Of a DNA stretch of 64,000 nt, positions 42,732 to 49,797 are shown one piece after another (positions within the stretch are counted from its first letter, which is position 1; each line of letters starts with the position of its first letter). The notes beneath the pieces were generated by a model that saw nothing but the letters and a program-made list of their open reading frames with translations, had not been told where the DNA came from and made no database searches. The position numbers and the translations under genes were made by a program. Source of the DNA: an uncultured Propionivibrio sp. (lineage in GTDB: Bacteria > Pseudomonadota > Gammaproteobacteria > Burkholderiales > Rhodocyclaceae); contig NZ_OY762657.1 of assembly GCF_963666255.1 (NCBI RefSeq), positions 62,001-126,000 of the forward strand, in the 5' to 3' direction.

Positions 42732-44174
42732 ATGAATTTTCTGCCGTCCGCCCGTTCCTACGATGACCTGCAAGCCCGCTACGGCCGTCGCGCCAAGTGG
42801 TTGCTGCTCTGGATCGTCGGGACCGGCACCGTCGCCGGCGTGTTGTCGACGACGAGCTTCAACGTTGCCGTGCCGGCGCTGATCCGCGCCTTCGGTCTCG
42901 GCCAGCACGAGGTGCAGTGGGCGATCACCGGTTTCATGGCGGCGATGACATTGGCAATGCTGCCGACTTCCTGGCTACTTGACCGCTTCGGCTTCCGCCG
43001 CGTCTTCCTGACGGCGCTGACGGCGCTCGCCGTGACCAGCGTGCTCGGCAGTCTGGCGCCCAGTTTCCCCGCCGTTGTCGGCGCACGCATCCTGCAGGGC
43101 ATGGCCACCGGCGTCCTGCAACCGCTCGGCGTGCTCGCCGTCATGCGCCTGTTCCCGCCGCATCGCCAGGGCAAGGCCTCGGGCATGCTGAGCTTCGGCA
43201 TCGTCCTGGCACCGGCCGTCGCACCCGCGCTCGGCGGCGGTCTGCTCGACCTCTTCGGCTGGCGTGCGATCTTCCTGATCAACCTGCCCTTCTGCCTGAT
43301 CGCCGGCATCGCCGGGCTCTTCCTCTGGCCGGCACCGCAGAAACGCCTGCGCCGCGCCTTCGACTGGACCGGAACGCTGCTGCTCGTCATCCTCACGCTG
43401 TCGCTCGTCGAATGCGCCGTCAGCCTGCAGAATCACGGCCTGCTGGCGCCCTGGACGCTCGCCCAACTGGCGGTTGCCGGCACCGCGACGGGCTTCTTCC
43501 TGCGCCACGCGCGGCGCGCGCCCGAACCGATCATCCGCCTCGAACTGTTCGGCCACCGCAACTTCCTGATGGGCAGCCTCGTCTCCTTCGCCTACGGCTT
43601 CGGGCTGTATGCCTCGACCTACCTGATCCCGGTCTTCCTGCAGAGCGCGCTGCATTTTTCGGCGACCGCCGCCGGACTCGCGCTGATGCCGGCCGGCGTC
43701 GCGCTGGCGCTGACGATCCCGCTCGCCGGCCGCATGGCCGACCGCCACGCGCCCAAATGGATCACCGCCGGCGGACTCGGCTGCTTCGCCCTCTCTTTCC
43801 TGCTCTTCGCTTTCTGGGGCGGCCGCATCAACCACGCCGAACTGGTCGGCGCCACCGTGCTCGGCCGCATCGGCCTCGGCCTGATCCTGCCGGCGCTGAG
43901 CCTCGCCACGCTGCGCCATCTGGCGCCCGAACAACTGTCGCAATCCTCGGTAGTGGTCAGTTATACCCGGCAGCTCGGTGGCGTCCTCGGCGTCGCTGTT
44001 GCCGCCGTCTTCGTCGAATGGCGGGAAACAATCTACGGCCACGTCGCCCCCGGCGTCTTCACTGCGTATGCGCAGGGCTTTCTGCTGCTCACGGCCATCT
44101 TCGTCCTGGCGCTCTGCGCTGCCAGTCTGATGAAGGCGGAGACACGCGCGCCGGCGAGTATCGGAGTGTCATAG
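42732..44174 (+). CDS. MFS drug efflux transporter, DHA2 family (EmrB/QacA-like)
   Basis: The transporter of about 480 residues has fourteen predicted helices. Characteristic motifs are STTSFNVAVPALIRAFG in helix 1, WLLDRFGFRRVFL (motif A), GARILQGMATGVLQPLGVLAVMRLFPPHRQGKASG (motif C region) and WRAIFLINLP. It exports toxic compounds by proton antiport. I prefer the ATG at 42732 (MNFLPSARS) because the one at 42702 touches the operator dyad. The MarR repressor is divergent. Confidence 0.93.
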   Translation: MNFLPSARSYDDLQARYGRRAKWLLLWIVGTGTVAGVLSTTSFNVAVPALIRAFGLGQHEVQWAITGFMAAMTLAMLPTSWLLDRFGFRRVFLTALTALAVTSVLGSLAPSFPAVVGARILQGMATGVLQPLGVLAVMRLFPPHRQGKASGMLSFGIVLAPAVAPALGGGLLDLFGWRAIFLINLPFCLIAGIAGLFLWPAPQKRLRRAFDWTGTLLLVILTLSLVECAVSLQNHGLLAPWTLAQLAVAGTATGFFLRHARRAPEPIIRLELFGHRNFLMGSLVSFAYGFGLYASTYLIPVFLQSALHFSATAAGLALMPAGVALALTIPLAGRMADRHAPKWITAGGLGCFALSFLLFAFWGGRINHAELVGATVLGRIGLGLILPALSLATLRHLAPEQLSQSSVVVSYTRQLGGVLGVAVAAVFVEWRETIYGHVAPGVFTAYAQGFLLLTAIFVLALCAASLMKAETRAPASIGVS

Positions 44175-44200
44175 CAGAAATCGCCGGGCCGCGCGGTGAC

Positions 44201-44253
44201 AGGCGGCATGCTGAATGAGTGGTGGCTGGAAGGGGCGACAGGTCATGCCGCCT
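44201..44253 (+). terminator. Hairpin after the MFS gene
   Basis: AGGCGGCATG (44201-44210) and CATGCCGCCT (44244-44253) form a perfect 10-bp stem with a 33-base loop, followed by CTCTTTG. It may end the MFS transcript; the large loop makes this uncertain. It also marks the left edge of the AT-rich island. Confidence 0.4.
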
Positions 44254-44734
44254 CTCTTTGCTCGCACGCGCTCCTATCGATCATTGAACACGGCTCAGGC
44301 GAACTAAAAAGTTTGATAACAGCTGCATATAGCTGCCATCACGGCATCTATTCGACATGATGCTGAACGCGTACAATCGGCCAAGTGCTGTCCTTCGCCT
44401 CCGTCTCAAAAATATCACTTGAATGACCGTTGTTCTCGAGAGTTCGTTGGATGAAAAATCGTGTTTTCCGTCCAACGAGAATCCTCAAGATTTAGATGCA
44501 TACGTTGAAAAGAAAAATCCAGACGTTCTAGCTCGCTGTTTCGTTGTAATAACTGTATATTTTTATCGAACTAGAGAGAAAAGTCAGAAAGCCTATGATT
44601 CGTTCCGTCCCTGCGCAAATTTCTAAGCGTATTCAAAATCGGTACTTTTTCACAGCATGACTTTGATATGTGTGATAACAAAGGAACCCGTCTGTTACTT
44701 CGATCTTCGTTATAAATAGCTAATTTTAAATTCT
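44254..44734. other. AT-rich leader of the ATPase/PIN island, no supported gene
   Basis: The composition changes sharply near 44290 from very GC-rich to AT-rich. A 67-codon frame at 44423-44626 is open on the plus strand but shows no family features or good Shine-Dalgarno. TTATAAATAG at 44710-44719 is a possible -10 for the ATPase gene; no good -35 is at the right distance. Confidence 0.45.
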
Positions 44735-46033
44735 ATGAAAATCTCTATTGAAGGTTACAAATCAATCGCCGATGAGCGATCACTGAATTTTTCTGATTTA
44801 ACAATACTTTCTGGAGCCAATAGTTCCGGAAAATCAACTTTTATGCAGCCATTGTTGCTAATAAAACAGACATTGGAAAATGATTTCGATGCTGGCTCAT
44901 TAATGCTTGACGGGCCCAATGTAAAACTTAATGACTCAAAAGAGATCGTTTCTAAAATTGCAACACGCGAAAAAAAAGACTTCTCCGTATCGGTATCCAA
45001 TGACAAATCAGAGGTTAAAGCTACGTATAAATACAGGCCTCGCAGGGGAATGCACATTGATCGCATATTTCACCGAAGCCCGGAATTTAAAGACGGCATT
45101 GAAATTCACCATGGCCTTACGCAACTTGAAGCAGAGAACTTGTTACCCGAAGAGCAGGTGAAATTGTTTAAAGAGGCTGTCGGCAAGGAGAAAAGTGTAC
45201 GCTGGAAGGTGGAGCGTGATCGTTGCTTTTTGGATGTAAAAATGCTAATTGGAGGAAAAGTTACCCCTTTTCAGCTTGGTTTTGATCCGGCTCGAAAGCT
45301 TGGCATACTTGCAACTCGTTTGATACATGTTCCAGGTTTAAGAGGAAACCCGGAGCGCTCATATAAAGTGGCCTCATCAGAGGCTGTTTATCCGGGATCG
45401 TTTGAACGCTACGTTGCCAGCATCGTTCATCAATGGGGAAAACAAATTCGCCACCGGTCGAAGTTCGAATTGTTAAAAAGACAACTTAACGATTTAGGTT
45501 TGGCTTCGTCAATAACTACAGAAAATATTAACGAAACTCACTTAGAGATACGGATTTCAAGATTCGCTGGCTGTTCAAAATGCGCAACGGATTTCGTAAA
45601 TATCGCCGACGTTGGATTTGGTGTGTCTCAGACGTTGCCAGTTCTTGTGGGGTTGCTAGCCGCAAAAAAGGACCAGTATGTTTATATTGAGCAACCAGAA
45701 CTACATTTGCATCCTAAAGCTCAATTTGGGCTGGCTCAAATTATTGCAACAGCGGTAGTTGATCGAAACGTGAAAGTCATCATTGAGACGCATAGCTCAG
45801 TTTTGATACGTGGAATTCAAATACTGGTGGCGAGTGGAAAATTGAATCCTGAGGCCGTCTCCCTAAATTGGTTCACTCAGAACATTGAAGATGGCCAGAC
45901 AGAAATAAATGAAGCCAAAATGGATAAATATGGAGCCTTCGGCGACTGGCCGGTTGATTTCGATGACGTAGCATTAACTGTCGAACAAATGTATTTGGAT
46001 GCCGTCGAGGAGGCTTTGTCTAATGAAATTTAA
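44735..46033 (+). CDS. ABC-type AAA ATPase (OLD/DUF3696-like) of an island system
   Basis: The 432-residue protein has N-terminal MKISIEGYKSIADERSLNFSDL, Walker A GANSSGKST (residues 27-35), a central region of about 230 residues, an ABC-signature-like DVGFGVSQTLPVL (about 292-304), Walker B with catalytic Glu and D-loop-like YIEQPELHLHPKAQFGLA (Glu319 on) and a switch His353 in IIETHSS. These are marks of SMC/OLD-like ATPases found in defence systems such as Septu, Gabija, PARIS and retron effectors. There is no TOPRIM domain. The C-terminal WP-D-F end resembles DUF3696 proteins. Base composition is far from the chromosome average, a sign of horizontal transfer. It overlaps the PIN-like gene by 11 bases. 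Confidence 0.85.
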   Translation: MKISIEGYKSIADERSLNFSDLTILSGANSSGKSTFMQPLLLIKQTLENDFDAGSLMLDGPNVKLNDSKEIVSKIATREKKDFSVSVSNDKSEVKATYKYRPRRGMHIDRIFHRSPEFKDGIEIHHGLTQLEAENLLPEEQVKLFKEAVGKEKSVRWKVERDRCFLDVKMLIGGKVTPFQLGFDPARKLGILATRLIHVPGLRGNPERSYKVASSEAVYPGSFERYVASIVHQWGKQIRHRSKFELLKRQLNDLGLASSITTENINETHLEIRISRFAGCSKCATDFVNIADVGFGVSQTLPVLVGLLAAKKDQYVYIEQPELHLHPKAQFGLAQIIATAVVDRNVKVIIETHSSVLIRGIQILVASGKLNPEAVSLNWFTQNIEDGQTEINEAKMDKYGAFGDWPVDFDDVALTVEQMYLDAVEEALSNEI

Positions 46034-46541
46034 CGGGGAAAGTATTGTTGTTGATGCGGACGTGGCAAGAGCTGCTGGCGTTACTGAACACCCCGTATCA
46101 AAAAACTCTCGAGTCCTTCTACAAACATTGCTTGCTATGGACTACAAAGTCGGATTCTGTCCGGTATTGTTTGGCGAATGGAAAAAGCATCGTTCATTGT
46201 TCGCCAAGAGGTGGCTCGGAAGCATGGTTGCTAGAAAGAAAGTCGTTCGATTAACCCCCGTGTCTATAGCTTTAGGTTTGATTGACTCAGCGAATATAAC
46301 CGAGGAGCAAAGGAGTGTCGCAAACAAAGATGCTCATGTTGTAGATGCGGCCTTGGCGTCCGACAGGTTTATTGCTTCAAATGACAAAAAAGCAAGAGAT
46401 GTATTTTGCTGCGTAGCGCAAGATACTGCGGCGTTTCGCGACGTAATATGGACAGTGCCATCTTTACACGGCGAAAAAATATCTGAAGTGCTTAGTTCAA
46501 AGGACGATATTCCTCCACAGTGGCGACTTACTTTGACCTAG
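46023..46541 (+). CDS. PIN-like nuclease domain protein partnered with the ATPase
   Basis: The 172-residue protein has a PIN-like arrangement of acids: Asp11 and Asp13 in SIVVDADVARAAG, Glu52 in FGEWKKH, Asp103 in NKDAHVVDAALASDRFIASND and Asp121, in the order and spacing of PIN ribonucleases (D, E, D, D). The ATG at 46023 overlaps the ATPase stop, so the two are translationally coupled. No antitoxin is next to it; the ATPase may hold it inactive until a trigger. It could also act on DNA. Confidence 0.7.
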   Translation: MKFNGESIVVDADVARAAGVTEHPVSKNSRVLLQTLLAMDYKVGFCPVLFGEWKKHRSLFAKRWLGSMVARKKVVRLTPVSIALGLIDSANITEEQRSVANKDAHVVDAALASDRFIASNDKKARDVFCCVAQDTAAFRDVIWTVPSLHGEKISEVLSSKDDIPPQWRLTLT

Positions 46542-46939
46542 CAAAGACCGACGAGTGCTTGGTCAGCCAACTGTTCGTACAGCAGCCTTTTACTCAGAAT
46601 GTTGCCACCGCTCCGCTAGACCTGCGAAGGTCTGCTGCGGGTCGATACCCGCCAGTTCAGCTTTGTTCCTCCCTGCCCCGATGACACGCCGCAGCGACTA
46701 ATGTTTGTCGGATGAGTGGGCGACTCCCGCCGTTATTGCGAGGGAGAGTGGCCACAGGACGCCAACCGCGCTTTCGCGACAAGACCACGCACACACGACC
46801 CCTCGCTGATCCCTCTGTCATGGCGCGCCAACAGGGCAACCGCGATCTTCATACCCGAACGCCGAAAATATTGTCGGTATCCCTGCGGCGCCGACACGGC
46901 TATCATTGGCAATCAGGTCATTCCAATGGTATTGCCATA
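46542..46939. other. Gap at the right edge of the island, no intact gene
   Basis: GC content rises again here. On the minus strand, about 46660-46590, a frame reads AELAGIDPQQTFAGLAERWQ before a stop, which looks like the tail of a real protein but has no intact continuation, so it may be a decayed gene. Nothing else is supported. Confidence 0.4.
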
Positions 46940-48667
46940 ATGCATCGCCTGTTTTCCGCCTGCCTGCTGCTTTTCTCCCTGTTCAGTCTGCCTCTCCAGG
47001 CGACTGAGGCGCCCGACACCCGCGTTCTTTTCATCAACTCCTACCATCGCGGTTACTCGTGGAGCGACGGCATTGAGGAGGGCTTGCGCCAGCGGTTGAG
47101 CGAGTCGGACAAGCGCATCGAACTCTCCATCGAATACCTCGACAGCCGCCGCTTTGCCTACGATACCCAGATCGAATTACTGGCCAGGGCGTTCGAGACG
47201 AAGTACGCCAAATACCGTCTTGACCTGATTGTCGTCTCCGACAACGCGGCCTTCGACTTCGCCATCCGGTACCGGGCACGCCTGTTTCCGACACAGCCCA
47301 TCGTCTTTTGCGGCTACAACAACTTTCGCCCCGAGGTCCTCAAGGACCTGCGCAACATCACCGGCGTCAACGAGGAAATCGCCATCGAGGACACAGTCAA
47401 CATGGCGCTGAAGATCCACCCCAACACGCGCACGCTCGCCTTCGTGACATCGACGGGCGATGCCAGCAGCAAGCGCATCGGCGAGGTGGCCGAACAATCG
47501 GCGTTCCCGTCGCTGCGCAAGCGCTTCGAGGTCGTGGACATGAAGGACTTCTCGGTCGAGCAGATCCGCAAGCGTCTTGCCGAACTGCCGCGTGACAGCC
47601 TGCTGTTCCTCAGCGGCCAGACCGCTGACCAGAGCACCGGCCGCGCCCTGACCCCGCCGGAAAACGGCGTCCTCATCACCGCCGCCAGCCCCTTCCCGAC
47701 GTACAGTTTCTGGGACTTTCATCTCGGACACGGCACCCTCGGCGGCCACATCATTACCGGCCCGGAGCAGGGCCGCGCTGCCGGCGACATGGCCTTGCGC
47801 GTCCTGGCCGGCACGCCGGCGGACAGCATTCCCGTACTCATGACCACGCCGACCCGCGACGTCTTCGACTACAACGCCATGAAACGCTTCGGCATCCGGA
47901 TCAAGGACCTGCCGGAAGAAGCGCTGATCCTCAACCGCCCCTTCTCCCTGTGGGACAACTATCGCTGGCAGATGATCGGCGTCATCGCCCTGCTCGTCGT
48001 CGAAACCGCCCTGATCGCACTCCTTTTGCATATCAGCCGCGGTCGCCGCAAAGCGCTGGCCGCACTGGACGAAGAGCGCGCACTCCTTGAGCAGCGCGTG
48101 GCCGAGCGTACCCATGAACTCCGGGTGGCCAACGAACAATTGGCGAGCATCAGCATGACGGATGTCCTGACCGGGTTGCCCAACCGGCGCCGTTTCGACG
48201 AAGCGCTCGATACCGAGATCGCACACCTGCGCCGTTCCGGCGGATTCCTGTCGATGATCATGCTCGACGTCGATTTCTTCAAGCCGTTCAATGACACCTA
48301 TGGCCACGTCGATGGCGACGATTGCCTGCGGCGAGTTGCCTCCGTCATCTCCGGCCAGGCAAATCGCGCCACCGACCTGGCGGCGCGTTTCGGCGGCGAG
48401 GAGTTTGCGCTGATCCTGCCCGAGACCGACGCACAGGGCGCCGCCGCCCTTGCCGAACGCATTCGCGCCGGGATCGAACAGCTGGCTATTCCGCACAGCG
48501 CGTCGAAAGTCGCCGACCACGTGACGGCCAGCCTCGGCGCCATCACCCTGCTGCCGGCAACCCTGCCCTCCCGTGACGACGTCATCCGGCTGGTCGACGC
48601 ACAGCTGTATCGCGCCAAGAAAGATGGACGCAACCGCGTCGCGATCATGGACAGCACACAGACATAA
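46940..48667 (+). CDS. ABC-type substrate-binding domain fused to a GGDEF diguanylate cyclase
   Basis: The 575-residue protein has a Sec signal (about 1-22), an ABC_sub_bind-like periplasmic domain (about 28-330: VLFINSYHRGYSWSDGIEEGL, LIVVSDNAAFDFAIRYR, GQTADQSTGRALTP, FWDFHLGHGTLGGHIITGPEQG), a membrane helix (about 346-366, MIGVIALLVVETALIALLL), a coiled coil and a GGDEF domain (MTDVLTGLPNRRRFDEAL, DVDFFKPFNDTYGHVDGDDCLR, FGGEEFALILPETD). It should couple a periplasmic ligand to c-di-GMP synthesis. The start ATG at 46940 gives the signal peptide; the Shine-Dalgarno is weak. Confidence 0.92.
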   Translation: MHRLFSACLLLFSLFSLPLQATEAPDTRVLFINSYHRGYSWSDGIEEGLRQRLSESDKRIELSIEYLDSRRFAYDTQIELLARAFETKYAKYRLDLIVVSDNAAFDFAIRYRARLFPTQPIVFCGYNNFRPEVLKDLRNITGVNEEIAIEDTVNMALKIHPNTRTLAFVTSTGDASSKRIGEVAEQSAFPSLRKRFEVVDMKDFSVEQIRKRLAELPRDSLLFLSGQTADQSTGRALTPPENGVLITAASPFPTYSFWDFHLGHGTLGGHIITGPEQGRAAGDMALRVLAGTPADSIPVLMTTPTRDVFDYNAMKRFGIRIKDLPEEALILNRPFSLWDNYRWQMIGVIALLVVETALIALLLHISRGRRKALAALDEERALLEQRVAERTHELRVANEQLASISMTDVLTGLPNRRRFDEALDTEIAHLRRSGGFLSMIMLDVDFFKPFNDTYGHVDGDDCLRRVASVISGQANRATDLAARFGGEEFALILPETDAQGAAALAERIRAGIEQLAIPHSASKVADHVTASLGAITLLPATLPSRDDVIRLVDAQLYRAKKDGRNRVAIMDSTQT

Positions 48668-48683
48668 CGCTGGGCCTCGCCTC

Positions 48684-48711
48684 GTAAAAAAAACCGCGCC
48701 CGAAGGCGCGG
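48684..48711 (-). terminator. Intrinsic terminator of the dctP gene
   Basis: On the minus strand CCGCGCC-TTCG-GGCGCGG forms a tetraloop hairpin followed by TTTTTTTTAC, about 33 bases after the dctP stop. It also lies just behind the convergent cyclase gene. Confidence 0.85.
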
Positions 48712-48743
48712 CATGAGGAGGATATCCGTACCGGCGCAGGCGC

Positions 48744-49763
48744 TTACTTGGCTTTGCGCACTTTCTCGACTTCGGCATAGAAACTCTTGACGAAATCGGG
48801 GCCGATCGAGGCCGAGAACTTCTCGATCACCGGCTTGACCGATTGGCGCATCTTGTCGAGCTCGGCCGGGGCGAGTTCGGTCACCGCCATGCCTTTCGCA
48901 TGAAGCTGGCCGACCGCGTCCTTGTCCTGGCGGATTTCCTCTGCCCGCTGGAAGTCGCGGGCGATGACCGCCGCCTTGCGGATCGCTGCCTGCTGGTCTG
49001 CCGGCAACGTGGAGAACCACTTGTTCGACACGACGAGCGCCACCGGCGTATAGACGTGGTGCGTGATGGCCAGGTGTTTCTGTACTTCGTAGATCTTGTT
49101 CTGGAACATATCGACCGGCGGATGCTCCAGTCCGTCGAGCGCCCCGATCTCCAGCGCTGTAAATACTTCGGCATACGCCATCGGCGTGGCGTTGATGCCC
49201 ATCGCCTTGAAGCTCTCGATCGCCACAGGACTCTGCATGACGCGGATCTTGAGGCCCTTGAAATCCTCGAACTTCCGGATCGGGCGCTTGCTGTTGGCGA
49301 CGTTGCGGAACGCCCCGCCCGCCCAGGTCAGGCCGACAGCCCCGGTGTCCTTGAGGTCGTCGAGCAGCTTCGTGCCCACCGGGCCGTCGAGCACCTTGGC
49401 GACTTCAGCGTCATTGGAGAACAGGAAAGGGAAGTCGAAGATCTGGAGTTCCTTCTTGCGCACGGCAAACGGCACGAGCGAACCGAGATAGAACTCGAGG
49501 ACGCCGCCCTGCACCGATTGCAGCATCTTTTCTTCCGAACCGAGCGACGAATTGGCGAAGACCTTGATCTTGACCTGGCCGTTGGTGGCTTTGTCCACTT
49601 CGGCGGCAAAACGCGCCATCGCCTGGCCGCGCGGGTGCTGTTCGGTGAAGCCGTGGCCGAGGCGCGCCTCGACCGCCAGCGCCGACGTCGACGCGAGCAG
49701 GCTGGCGGCGCCGATCAGGGAGGAGATACGTGTCAACATCGAAGCTTTCGCGTGCATCGTCAT
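48744..49763 (-). CDS. TRAP transporter substrate-binding protein, DctP family
   Basis: The 339-residue protein has a signal peptide (about 1-31, ending ASTSALA), and the DctP-type motifs LGHGFTEQHPRGQAMARFA, SLGSEEKMLQSVQGG, FKGLKIRVMQSPVAIESFKAMGINATPMAYAEVFTALEIGALDGLEHP. The conserved Arg (KIRVMQ) binds a carboxylate, so the ligand is an organic acid. No dctQ/dctM genes are adjacent. The ATG at 49763 follows GGAG. It precedes an SDR dehydrogenase gene set divergent from a LysR regulator. Confidence 0.92.
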   Translation of the reverse strand: MTMHAKASMLTRISSLIGAASLLASTSALAVEARLGHGFTEQHPRGQAMARFAAEVDKATNGQVKIKVFANSSLGSEEKMLQSVQGGVLEFYLGSLVPFAVRKKELQIFDFPFLFSNDAEVAKVLDGPVGTKLLDDLKDTGAVGLTWAGGAFRNVANSKRPIRKFEDFKGLKIRVMQSPVAIESFKAMGINATPMAYAEVFTALEIGALDGLEHPPVDMFQNKIYEVQKHLAITHHVYTPVALVVSNKWFSTLPADQQAAIRKAAVIARDFQRAEEIRQDKDAVGQLHAKGMAVTELAPAELDKMRQSVKPVIEKFSASIGPDFVKSFYAEVEKVRKAK

Positions 49764-49797
49764 AAAATTCTCCAGGAAGGTCAAAAAAGGGCGTCGT

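Follow-up and report, generated by a model that had tools for sequence, protein, structure and literature searches.

An A+T-rich island in an uncultured Propionivibrio couples an ABC ATPase to a predicted PIN nuclease: a candidate two-gene defence system

The window considered here, meaning the whole stretch of DNA that was analysed, comprises 64,000 nucleotides of an uncultured Propionivibrio sp. (contig NZ_OY762657.1, positions 62,001 to 126,000). Our subject is a pair of genes within it, gene A, which encodes an ATPase, and gene B, which encodes a small protein with a predicted PIN nuclease fold. An earlier inspection made without database searches, referred to below as the sequence-only reading, had described an A+T-rich island carrying two coupled genes with an 11-base overlap, and both observations were borne out. 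The pair lies in the most A+T-rich part of the window: the G+C content of the segment 44290-46541 is 42.6%, compared with a mean of 64.3% (standard deviation 3.5, minimum 57.7%) in 571 segments of the same length that lie away from it (step 100 bases); among all 618 such segments, the minimum begins at 44301. Third-position G+C is 39% in gene A and 41% in gene B, against 80-89% in three other genes of the window. The neighbours of the pair, read by eye, are ordinary metabolic genes. The features of the island are as follows:

44219..44734, no strand assigned: A+T-rich leader 5' of the operon, 43% G+C, largest open reading frame 67 amino acids
44735..46033, + strand: gene A, ABC/OLD-SMC-type ATPase of 432 amino acids, a single ABC domain without TOPRIM
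44813..44839, + strand: Walker A of gene A, residues 27-35, GANSSGKST; G27, N29, S30, G32, K33 and S34 invariant in 62 aligned ATPases
45608..45631, + strand: ABC signature-like block, residues 292-299, DVGFGVSQ (D-x-G-x-G-x-S-Q); D292, G294, G296, S298 and Q299 invariant in the 62
45686..45715, + strand: Walker B, residues 318-327, IEQPELHLHP; Q320, P321, E322, H324, L325, H326 and P327 invariant in the 62
45791..45793, + strand: switch (H-loop) His353, kept in 61 of the 62
46008..46013, + strand: ribosome-binding site AGGAGG of gene B, read from the sequence, inside gene A and 9 bases 5' of the gene B start
46023..46541, + strand: gene B, predicted PIN-fold nuclease of 172 amino acids, whose first 11 bases (46023-46033) are also the last 11 of gene A
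46053..46055, + strand: PIN acid D11, after the first strand; D in 61 of 73 aligned proteins, N in 12, all from Poribacteria
46176..46178, + strand: PIN acid E52, in an invariant EW motif (73 of 73)
46329..46331, + strand: PIN acid D103 (73 of 73)
46383..46385, + strand: PIN acid D121 (73 of 73)

The start of gene B was placed at 46023, not at the 45999 of the mechanical list of open reading frames, because the AGGAGG at 46008-46013 fits the former. In our judgement, the pair is probably a horizontally acquired defence system of two genes, in which the ATPase gates a PIN ribonuclease that causes abortive infection.

Gene A belongs to the OLD/SMC-type ABC ATPases, with Walker A, signature, Walker B and H-loop all present. 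The sequence-only reading had picked out these same motifs, and they proved to be conserved across the alignment of 62 ATPases, in which E319 is likewise kept in 61. The alignment holds 62 of the 80 sequences collected as described below; the other 18, mostly from Poribacteria and near-copies, were dropped by hand. Two Pfam families named beforehand as search models, AAA_15 (8.6e-25) and AAA_21 (9.8e-21), both match the protein. The AlphaFold model (predicted local distance difference test, pLDDT, 90.8) shows a single ABC domain, which includes a strand-rich insert and closes with a helix at the C-terminus. Its neighbours in the PDB (Foldseek/VIA) are heads of SMC and Rad50, PtuA of Septu, and retron ATPases (Ec78/Eco7). 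Among PADLOC profiles, NsnB of Menshen came first (2e-58), followed by HEC-03B (6.6e-40); the AriA profile also matches (5.3e-27). The NsnB and HEC-03B profiles match all 62 aligned ATPases and are therefore not specific.

Gene B was recognised by its fold and not through Pfam. Its AlphaFold model (pLDDT 94.8) has a PIN (Rossmann-like) fold, in line with the nuclease type proposed from the letters alone, and the closest solved structures are PIN toxins (7vwo, 5sv2), VapC21 among them. When the window protein was aligned with 72 other PIN proteins, four acids, D11, E52, D103 and D121, were found in PIN order. Catalogued loci (numbered with the prefix L) absent from this alignment are L011, L047, L054 and L071, which are partial or broken, L023, which is the same place as L002, L081, for which no start was found, and three loci without a PIN gene. 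The sequence-only reading had listed D13 as a further acid; that residue is D in just 19 of the 73 proteins and lies outside the conserved site, and was dropped as a catalytic residue. Asparagine at position 11 is found at 12 Poribacteria loci (L036, L052, L058, L061, L066, L069, L070, L072, L074, L078, L079 and L083), and to judge from this substitution the activity of these proteins may be altered or lost. With a threshold of E 1, no model of PADLOC or NCBIfam matched gene B, and Pfam gave one match at chance level. The profile phrog_6050, named as an HNH endonuclease, matched at E 0.002; with a match at this level only and a PIN fold in the predicted model, an HNH assignment was set aside. 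A PDB sequence search with the PIN profile gave six matches at E 0.1-0.7, one of them a putative VapC6.

The pairing of the two genes was assessed by scanning genome contigs with an alignment of two ATPases, from which the best 80 of 187 relatives were kept. A PIN gene lies 3' of the ATPase gene on the same strand in 77 of these 80 loci; of the three without one, L038 and L075 are cut off by the end of their contigs, and at L050 the 6 kb that follow the ATPase gene gave no match. As the search patterns favour close relatives, this pairing rate holds for this clade. The ATPase gene is upstream in all 77 measured pairs (one place being counted twice, as L002 and L023, and L081 not being measured), and 48 of the 77 overlap by at least one base, with a median overlap of 4. 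Two large gaps, at L047 and L071, belong to partial or broken PIN genes. Distances between ATPases and distances between PIN proteins are correlated (r 0.83 over 56 pairs), a value that was reached in 0 of 2000 permutations. Far from being confined to its own genome, which would have spoken against the sequence-only reading, the pair is found again in cellular genomes, many of them metagenome-assembled, that belong to 17 phyla including archaea, as well as on viral contigs.

A PIN fold near those of VapC toxins, encoded by a gene that overlaps that of its partner, would also be expected of an addiction or stress module akin to toxin-antitoxin systems. In that case the ATPase would act as the antitoxin of a VapC-like toxin, with self-maintenance or dormancy as the main function and defence as a secondary effect. 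Excerpts of one study describe an AAA ATPase node that acts as antitoxin for several nuclease-type toxins (PMC10440598; this and the other articles cited below are drawn on in part). However, an ATPase of 432 amino acids with catalytic motifs conserved in 62 sequences exceeds what a neutralising partner needs, and both the invariable order of the genes and their location in phage contigs argue against such a module. VapBC has the PIN toxin fold in common with gene B, whereas the direct neighbour and evident partner here is this large ATPase and not a small VapB antitoxin. Small open reading frames nearby, which might include an antitoxin gene, reach 67 amino acids in the leader (44423-44626, + strand) and 60 amino acids overlapping the stretch 3' of gene B. 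We consider a toxin-antitoxin-like role of the pair unlikely.

Across cellular genomes, the spread of the pair is wide and mostly patchy. In a sample of the window's own phylum, it was found in 1 of 398 genomes, namely its own, and among relatives in 2 of 99, each of the two being one of the 28 congeneric genomes. A search that started from the PIN gene in the phylum of Calothrix found it in 11 of 292 genomes; the ATPase gene adjoins it in 10, the exception being a fragment with a stop, and in two of the ten pairs the PIN gene contains a stop or is truncated. Counted as PIN genes irrespective of adjacency, 10 of 50 genomes of the Methanothrix family are positive and, with unusual frequency, 48 of 84 genomes of the Poribacteria phylum. 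Within Poribacteria, 20 of 24 loci have at least one of six neighbour families in common, a synteny that looks like vertical inheritance.

This synteny weighs against a horizontally acquired defence system. It would suit an RNA/DNA repair or processing operon with a housekeeping role, in which an SMC/Rad50-like ATPase loads the PIN nuclease on damaged nucleic acid. The fold likeness of gene A to Rad50 and SMC heads points the same way as the frequent and largely syntenic Poribacteria copies, and the commonness of shared neighbours in that phylum counts a little for a housekeeping operon and against the defence reading. Against the latter stand the patchy distribution elsewhere (the window's phylum, its relatives and the phylum of Calothrix), the carriage of the pair by phage contigs and its foreign base composition in the window, and we hold a housekeeping function to be improbable.

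On viral contigs, 79 ATPase loci were found. A PIN gene is present in 11 of the 12 nearest by E-value, the twelfth (L100) ending with the ATPase at the contig end; the other 67 viral ATPases have no PIN gene at E 1e-3. The positions of the pair in these contigs are accessory ones. In L102, it separates the gene of a repressor-like regulator from that of a phrog_1 integrase, and in L109 it directly follows an integrase; here a regulator gene lies upstream, and a gpA-type replication gene is found at a greater distance. The consulted portion of Rousset et al. (2022; PMC9122126) places a defence hotspot of a P2-related, K139-like phage in the interval from cI to the integrase, and L102 and L109 would appear to be of this type. 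The pair of L101 is flanked by a tail-collar fibre gene on one side and a tape-measure gene on the other, that of L104 by an integrase-family gene and the gene of the large terminase, and by clustering L103, L105-L107 and L110 have the same integrase and terminase neighbours as L104. Directly upstream of the pair in L106 (5069-7681) are genes for a DUF2326 protein and an ABC-3C (CTD11) HNH protein, likely a second defence module. In further searches, gene B by itself had no match in a pattern scan of genome contigs, nor in plasmid or phage records; the PIN proteins of L104 and L102 were not found in phage records, nor those of L015 and L102 in plasmids, and the pairs of L101 and L102 were not found in E. 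coli genomes at the DNA level.

The defence reading gains support from these phage-contig positions. They would also be expected of a superinfection or anti-defence/anti-satellite module that serves the phage and was later captured by chromosomes, given that 11 viral contigs carry the pair and that all four contigs tested have structural or lysogeny genes nearby. Yet loci in cellular genomes of so many phyla, archaea among them, make a benefit to cells likely, even if some of these loci may be prophages, and a module of purely viral service seems to us very improbable. A superinfection exclusion system could work by the same mechanism as the one proposed here.

Around chromosomal copies, the signal for defence is weak. 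Besides the two genes themselves, families of proteins of at least 90 amino acids each occur in 16 at most of the 93 catalogued loci, and the families found in at least seven loci belong to Poribacteria or phages, except for three other loci in one family. A neighbour scan covered 150 of 182 neighbours of 52 loci, with Poribacteria and four near-identical cyanobacteria left out, and was compared with a control set (141 of 156 genes, taken from ten genomes at 13 places); the two sets were not matched genome by genome, and 25 of 39 families were listed for the neighbour set. The 150 neighbours, unlike the 141 controls, included members of restriction-modification families, a single protein for each family (restriction and specificity proteins of type I; a type II enzyme and methylases), which is a weak signal. 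Matches to DndA/SspA, PD-T4-6 and mad6 appeared in both sets and are probably housekeeping cross-hits.

In a tree of the ATPases, 73 PIN-clade sequences and L100 formed one group with a Shimodaira-Hasegawa approximate likelihood ratio test (SH-aLRT) value of 100, spanning 17 labelled phyla including Methanobacteriota, and 11 HEC-03 ATPases formed another. The tree was built by a quick method with a midpoint root and contains some long branches; its 73 PIN-clade ATPases include some from loci with a partial or missing PIN gene (L038 and L050 at least), and a length rule of 350-520 amino acids admitted 15 of the 67 viral ATPases that lack a PIN gene, L100 being counted among the 15. The window ATPase groups with those of Massilia and Duganella (62-63% identity). 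The copy in P. dicarboxylicus, of the same genus, is 43-44% identical and occupies a different place in both tree and genome, which suggests that the pair reached the genus in two separate arrivals. Among Poribacteria, ATPases from loci with N-type and D-type PIN proteins are mixed (e.g., L061 beside L028), hinting at some partner exchange.

The pair was next compared with known systems. The sequence-only reading knew of no named system with exactly this combination, and this stands insofar as Menshen, Septu, PARIS and HEC-03 are not matched; the general architecture is not wholly new, as an ATPase gene beside a PIN-like gene is already a PADLOC candidate, HEC-03. Menshen requires NsnA, NsnB and NsnC, and a search of the genome for NsnC gave nothing up to E 1; the partner of gene A is a predicted PIN protein. 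Contig C1 encodes an NsnA-like protein (1276559-1277584, L221; 3.7e-114), whereas the island is on C3, and the NsnA model also matches in 7 of 14 control genomes, so that it is unspecific. An OLD nuclease of classes 1-3, in which the ATPase ends in a TOPRIM domain, was rejected, gene A having no such domain (Pfam up to E 1) and just two helices and two strands after H353. PARIS and Septu were likewise excluded: there is no AriB partner, PtuB is an HNH protein, and gene B, with its PIN fold, has no PADLOC family up to E 1, its phrog_6050 match being too slight to change this.

HEC-03 is nevertheless the nearest kind. Its HEC-03A protein was matched in 11 of 200 genomes, and all 11 loci have an ATPase that scores with the ATPase profile of this study. 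An hhalign comparison (81%, E 1.2e-5, 82 columns) shows gene B to be remotely related to HEC-03A, and ten aligned HEC-03A proteins retain D-T-N, E-Y and later D residues; from these residues and the remote alignment, HEC-03A is probably PIN-like too. Membership of gene B in HEC-03 was rejected, as the HEC-03A model does not match it up to E 1 and matches only 4 of the 73 aligned PIN sequences, the best at 0.019; moreover, the HEC-03 ATPases group apart from the PIN-linked ones. The HEC-03B profile matches gene A as it does all 62 aligned ATPases. HEC-03 loci differ further in carrying an RNA ligase gene (PF09414, E 2.6e-31 or better) next to HEC-03A, in 4 of 4 tested:

L091, 765-1448: RNA ligase, PF09414
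L093, 2013-2693: RNA ligase, PF09414
L094, 2022-2696: RNA ligase, PF09414
L096, 2027-2755: RNA ligase, PF09414

L090 looks alike by eye. The adjoining ligase hints at RNA as the substrate of HEC-03A and at a way to repair the cut. In the open-licence PMC literature, no description of HEC-03 itself was found, and no description of the exact ATPase-PIN pair was recognised (preprints not being part of that collection).

Several validated systems indicate how such a pair might operate. The nearest experimentally tested architecture is WonAB of the V. cholerae WASA-1 prophage, according to the part of the report used here likewise a two-gene system of an OLD-ABC ATPase and a nuclease, both needed, that acts by abortive infection; WonB is a PD-(D/E)xK nuclease whereas gene B is PIN, and the likeness considered here is one of architecture (PMC12137116). 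In PARIS, the ABC ATPase sensor AriA holds a separate nuclease, AriB, silent, and AriB cuts tRNA-Lys (PMC12409363, in excerpt); AriB is a TOPRIM tRNase, in contrast to the PIN protein here. Septu, whose PtuA is with the retron Ec78/Eco7 ATPases among the best PDB matches of gene A, cuts tRNA-Tyr, and OLD has been proposed to act via tRNA (PMC13096335, in excerpt). PIN ribonucleases also occur in the validated DefensePredictor systems DS-3, a single protein, and DS-5, a PIN protein with a DUF5830/AcrIF4-like protein; no ABC ATPase is described for either in the sections available to us (PMC13092281). Two of these sources mention incidentally that tRNA is cut by VapC (PMC13092281, PMC12409363).

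We propose that the ATPase of gene A oligomerises, binds the PIN protein and keeps it inactive, as would be expected by analogy with PARIS, Septu and WonAB. A signal made by the phage would act on the ATPase and free or activate the PIN protein, which would cut RNA, most likely tRNA or another RNA of translation, by means of a metal site formed by D11, E52, D103 and D121. The infected cell would stop translating and the phage would fail. For tRNA in particular as the target, we see about an even chance. The foreign base composition, the places in phage contigs, the pairing, the fold and the correlation of distances were all counted for the defence reading. The design is the same as in PARIS, Septu and WonAB with a PIN effector in place of theirs, and the lineage is distinct from HEC-03.

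More broadly, the pair may represent an unnamed defence family that spans bacteria and archaea. Its sensor would be an ABC ATPase that controls a PIN tRNase of VapC-like type, a further nuclease fold, after TOPRIM (PARIS, OLD) and HNH (Septu), under the same kind of ATPase to stop translation; this we put forward tentatively, at a little less than even. In HEC-03, a related ATPase clade goes together with an RNA ligase and a PIN-like protein of its own, and so this scaffold may have acquired PIN effectors on more than one occasion, perhaps with repair built in on the HEC-03 side. If the mechanism is true, PIN would be added to the nucleases controlled by OLD/SMC-like ATPases, and whether such systems converge on tRNA whatever their nuclease fold could be tested directly. 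Since gene B is invisible to the Pfam, NCBIfam and PADLOC models, catalogues built on them probably report at most a stray ATPase.

The surroundings of the island offer some further detail. An Rfam scan of 43500-47500 found nothing up to E 1. Sites resembling promoters or terminators were about as frequent in 44100-46800 as expected by chance, and no flanking repeats of note were found around the island. The leader contains a 28-base hairpin (44314-44341) that is terminator-like on the minus strand. In the same-genus genome G005, which we take to be Propionivibrio dicarboxylicus, its PIN protein being the same as that of L023 from this species, the left flank with an MFS gene (97% protein identity to the window) runs straight into material matching the window from 49766 onwards; window positions 44159-49765 are absent from it apart from a 29-base terminator-like piece. 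This interval also contains GGDEF and TRAP-type genes (by eye) at which the G+C bins are ordinary, so that it may have been inserted in the window lineage or lost in G005. In P. dicarboxylicus, the pair adjoins a serine-recombinase-like gene (L002, 4-1263, by eye). The 29-base piece, a GC hairpin after an A run, lies at 48685-48713 of the window, 3' of the GGDEF gene, and at L183 5963-5991, 3' of the MFS gene of P. dicarboxylicus, which suggests that the 4.5 kb between the copies was gained or lost beside a terminator.

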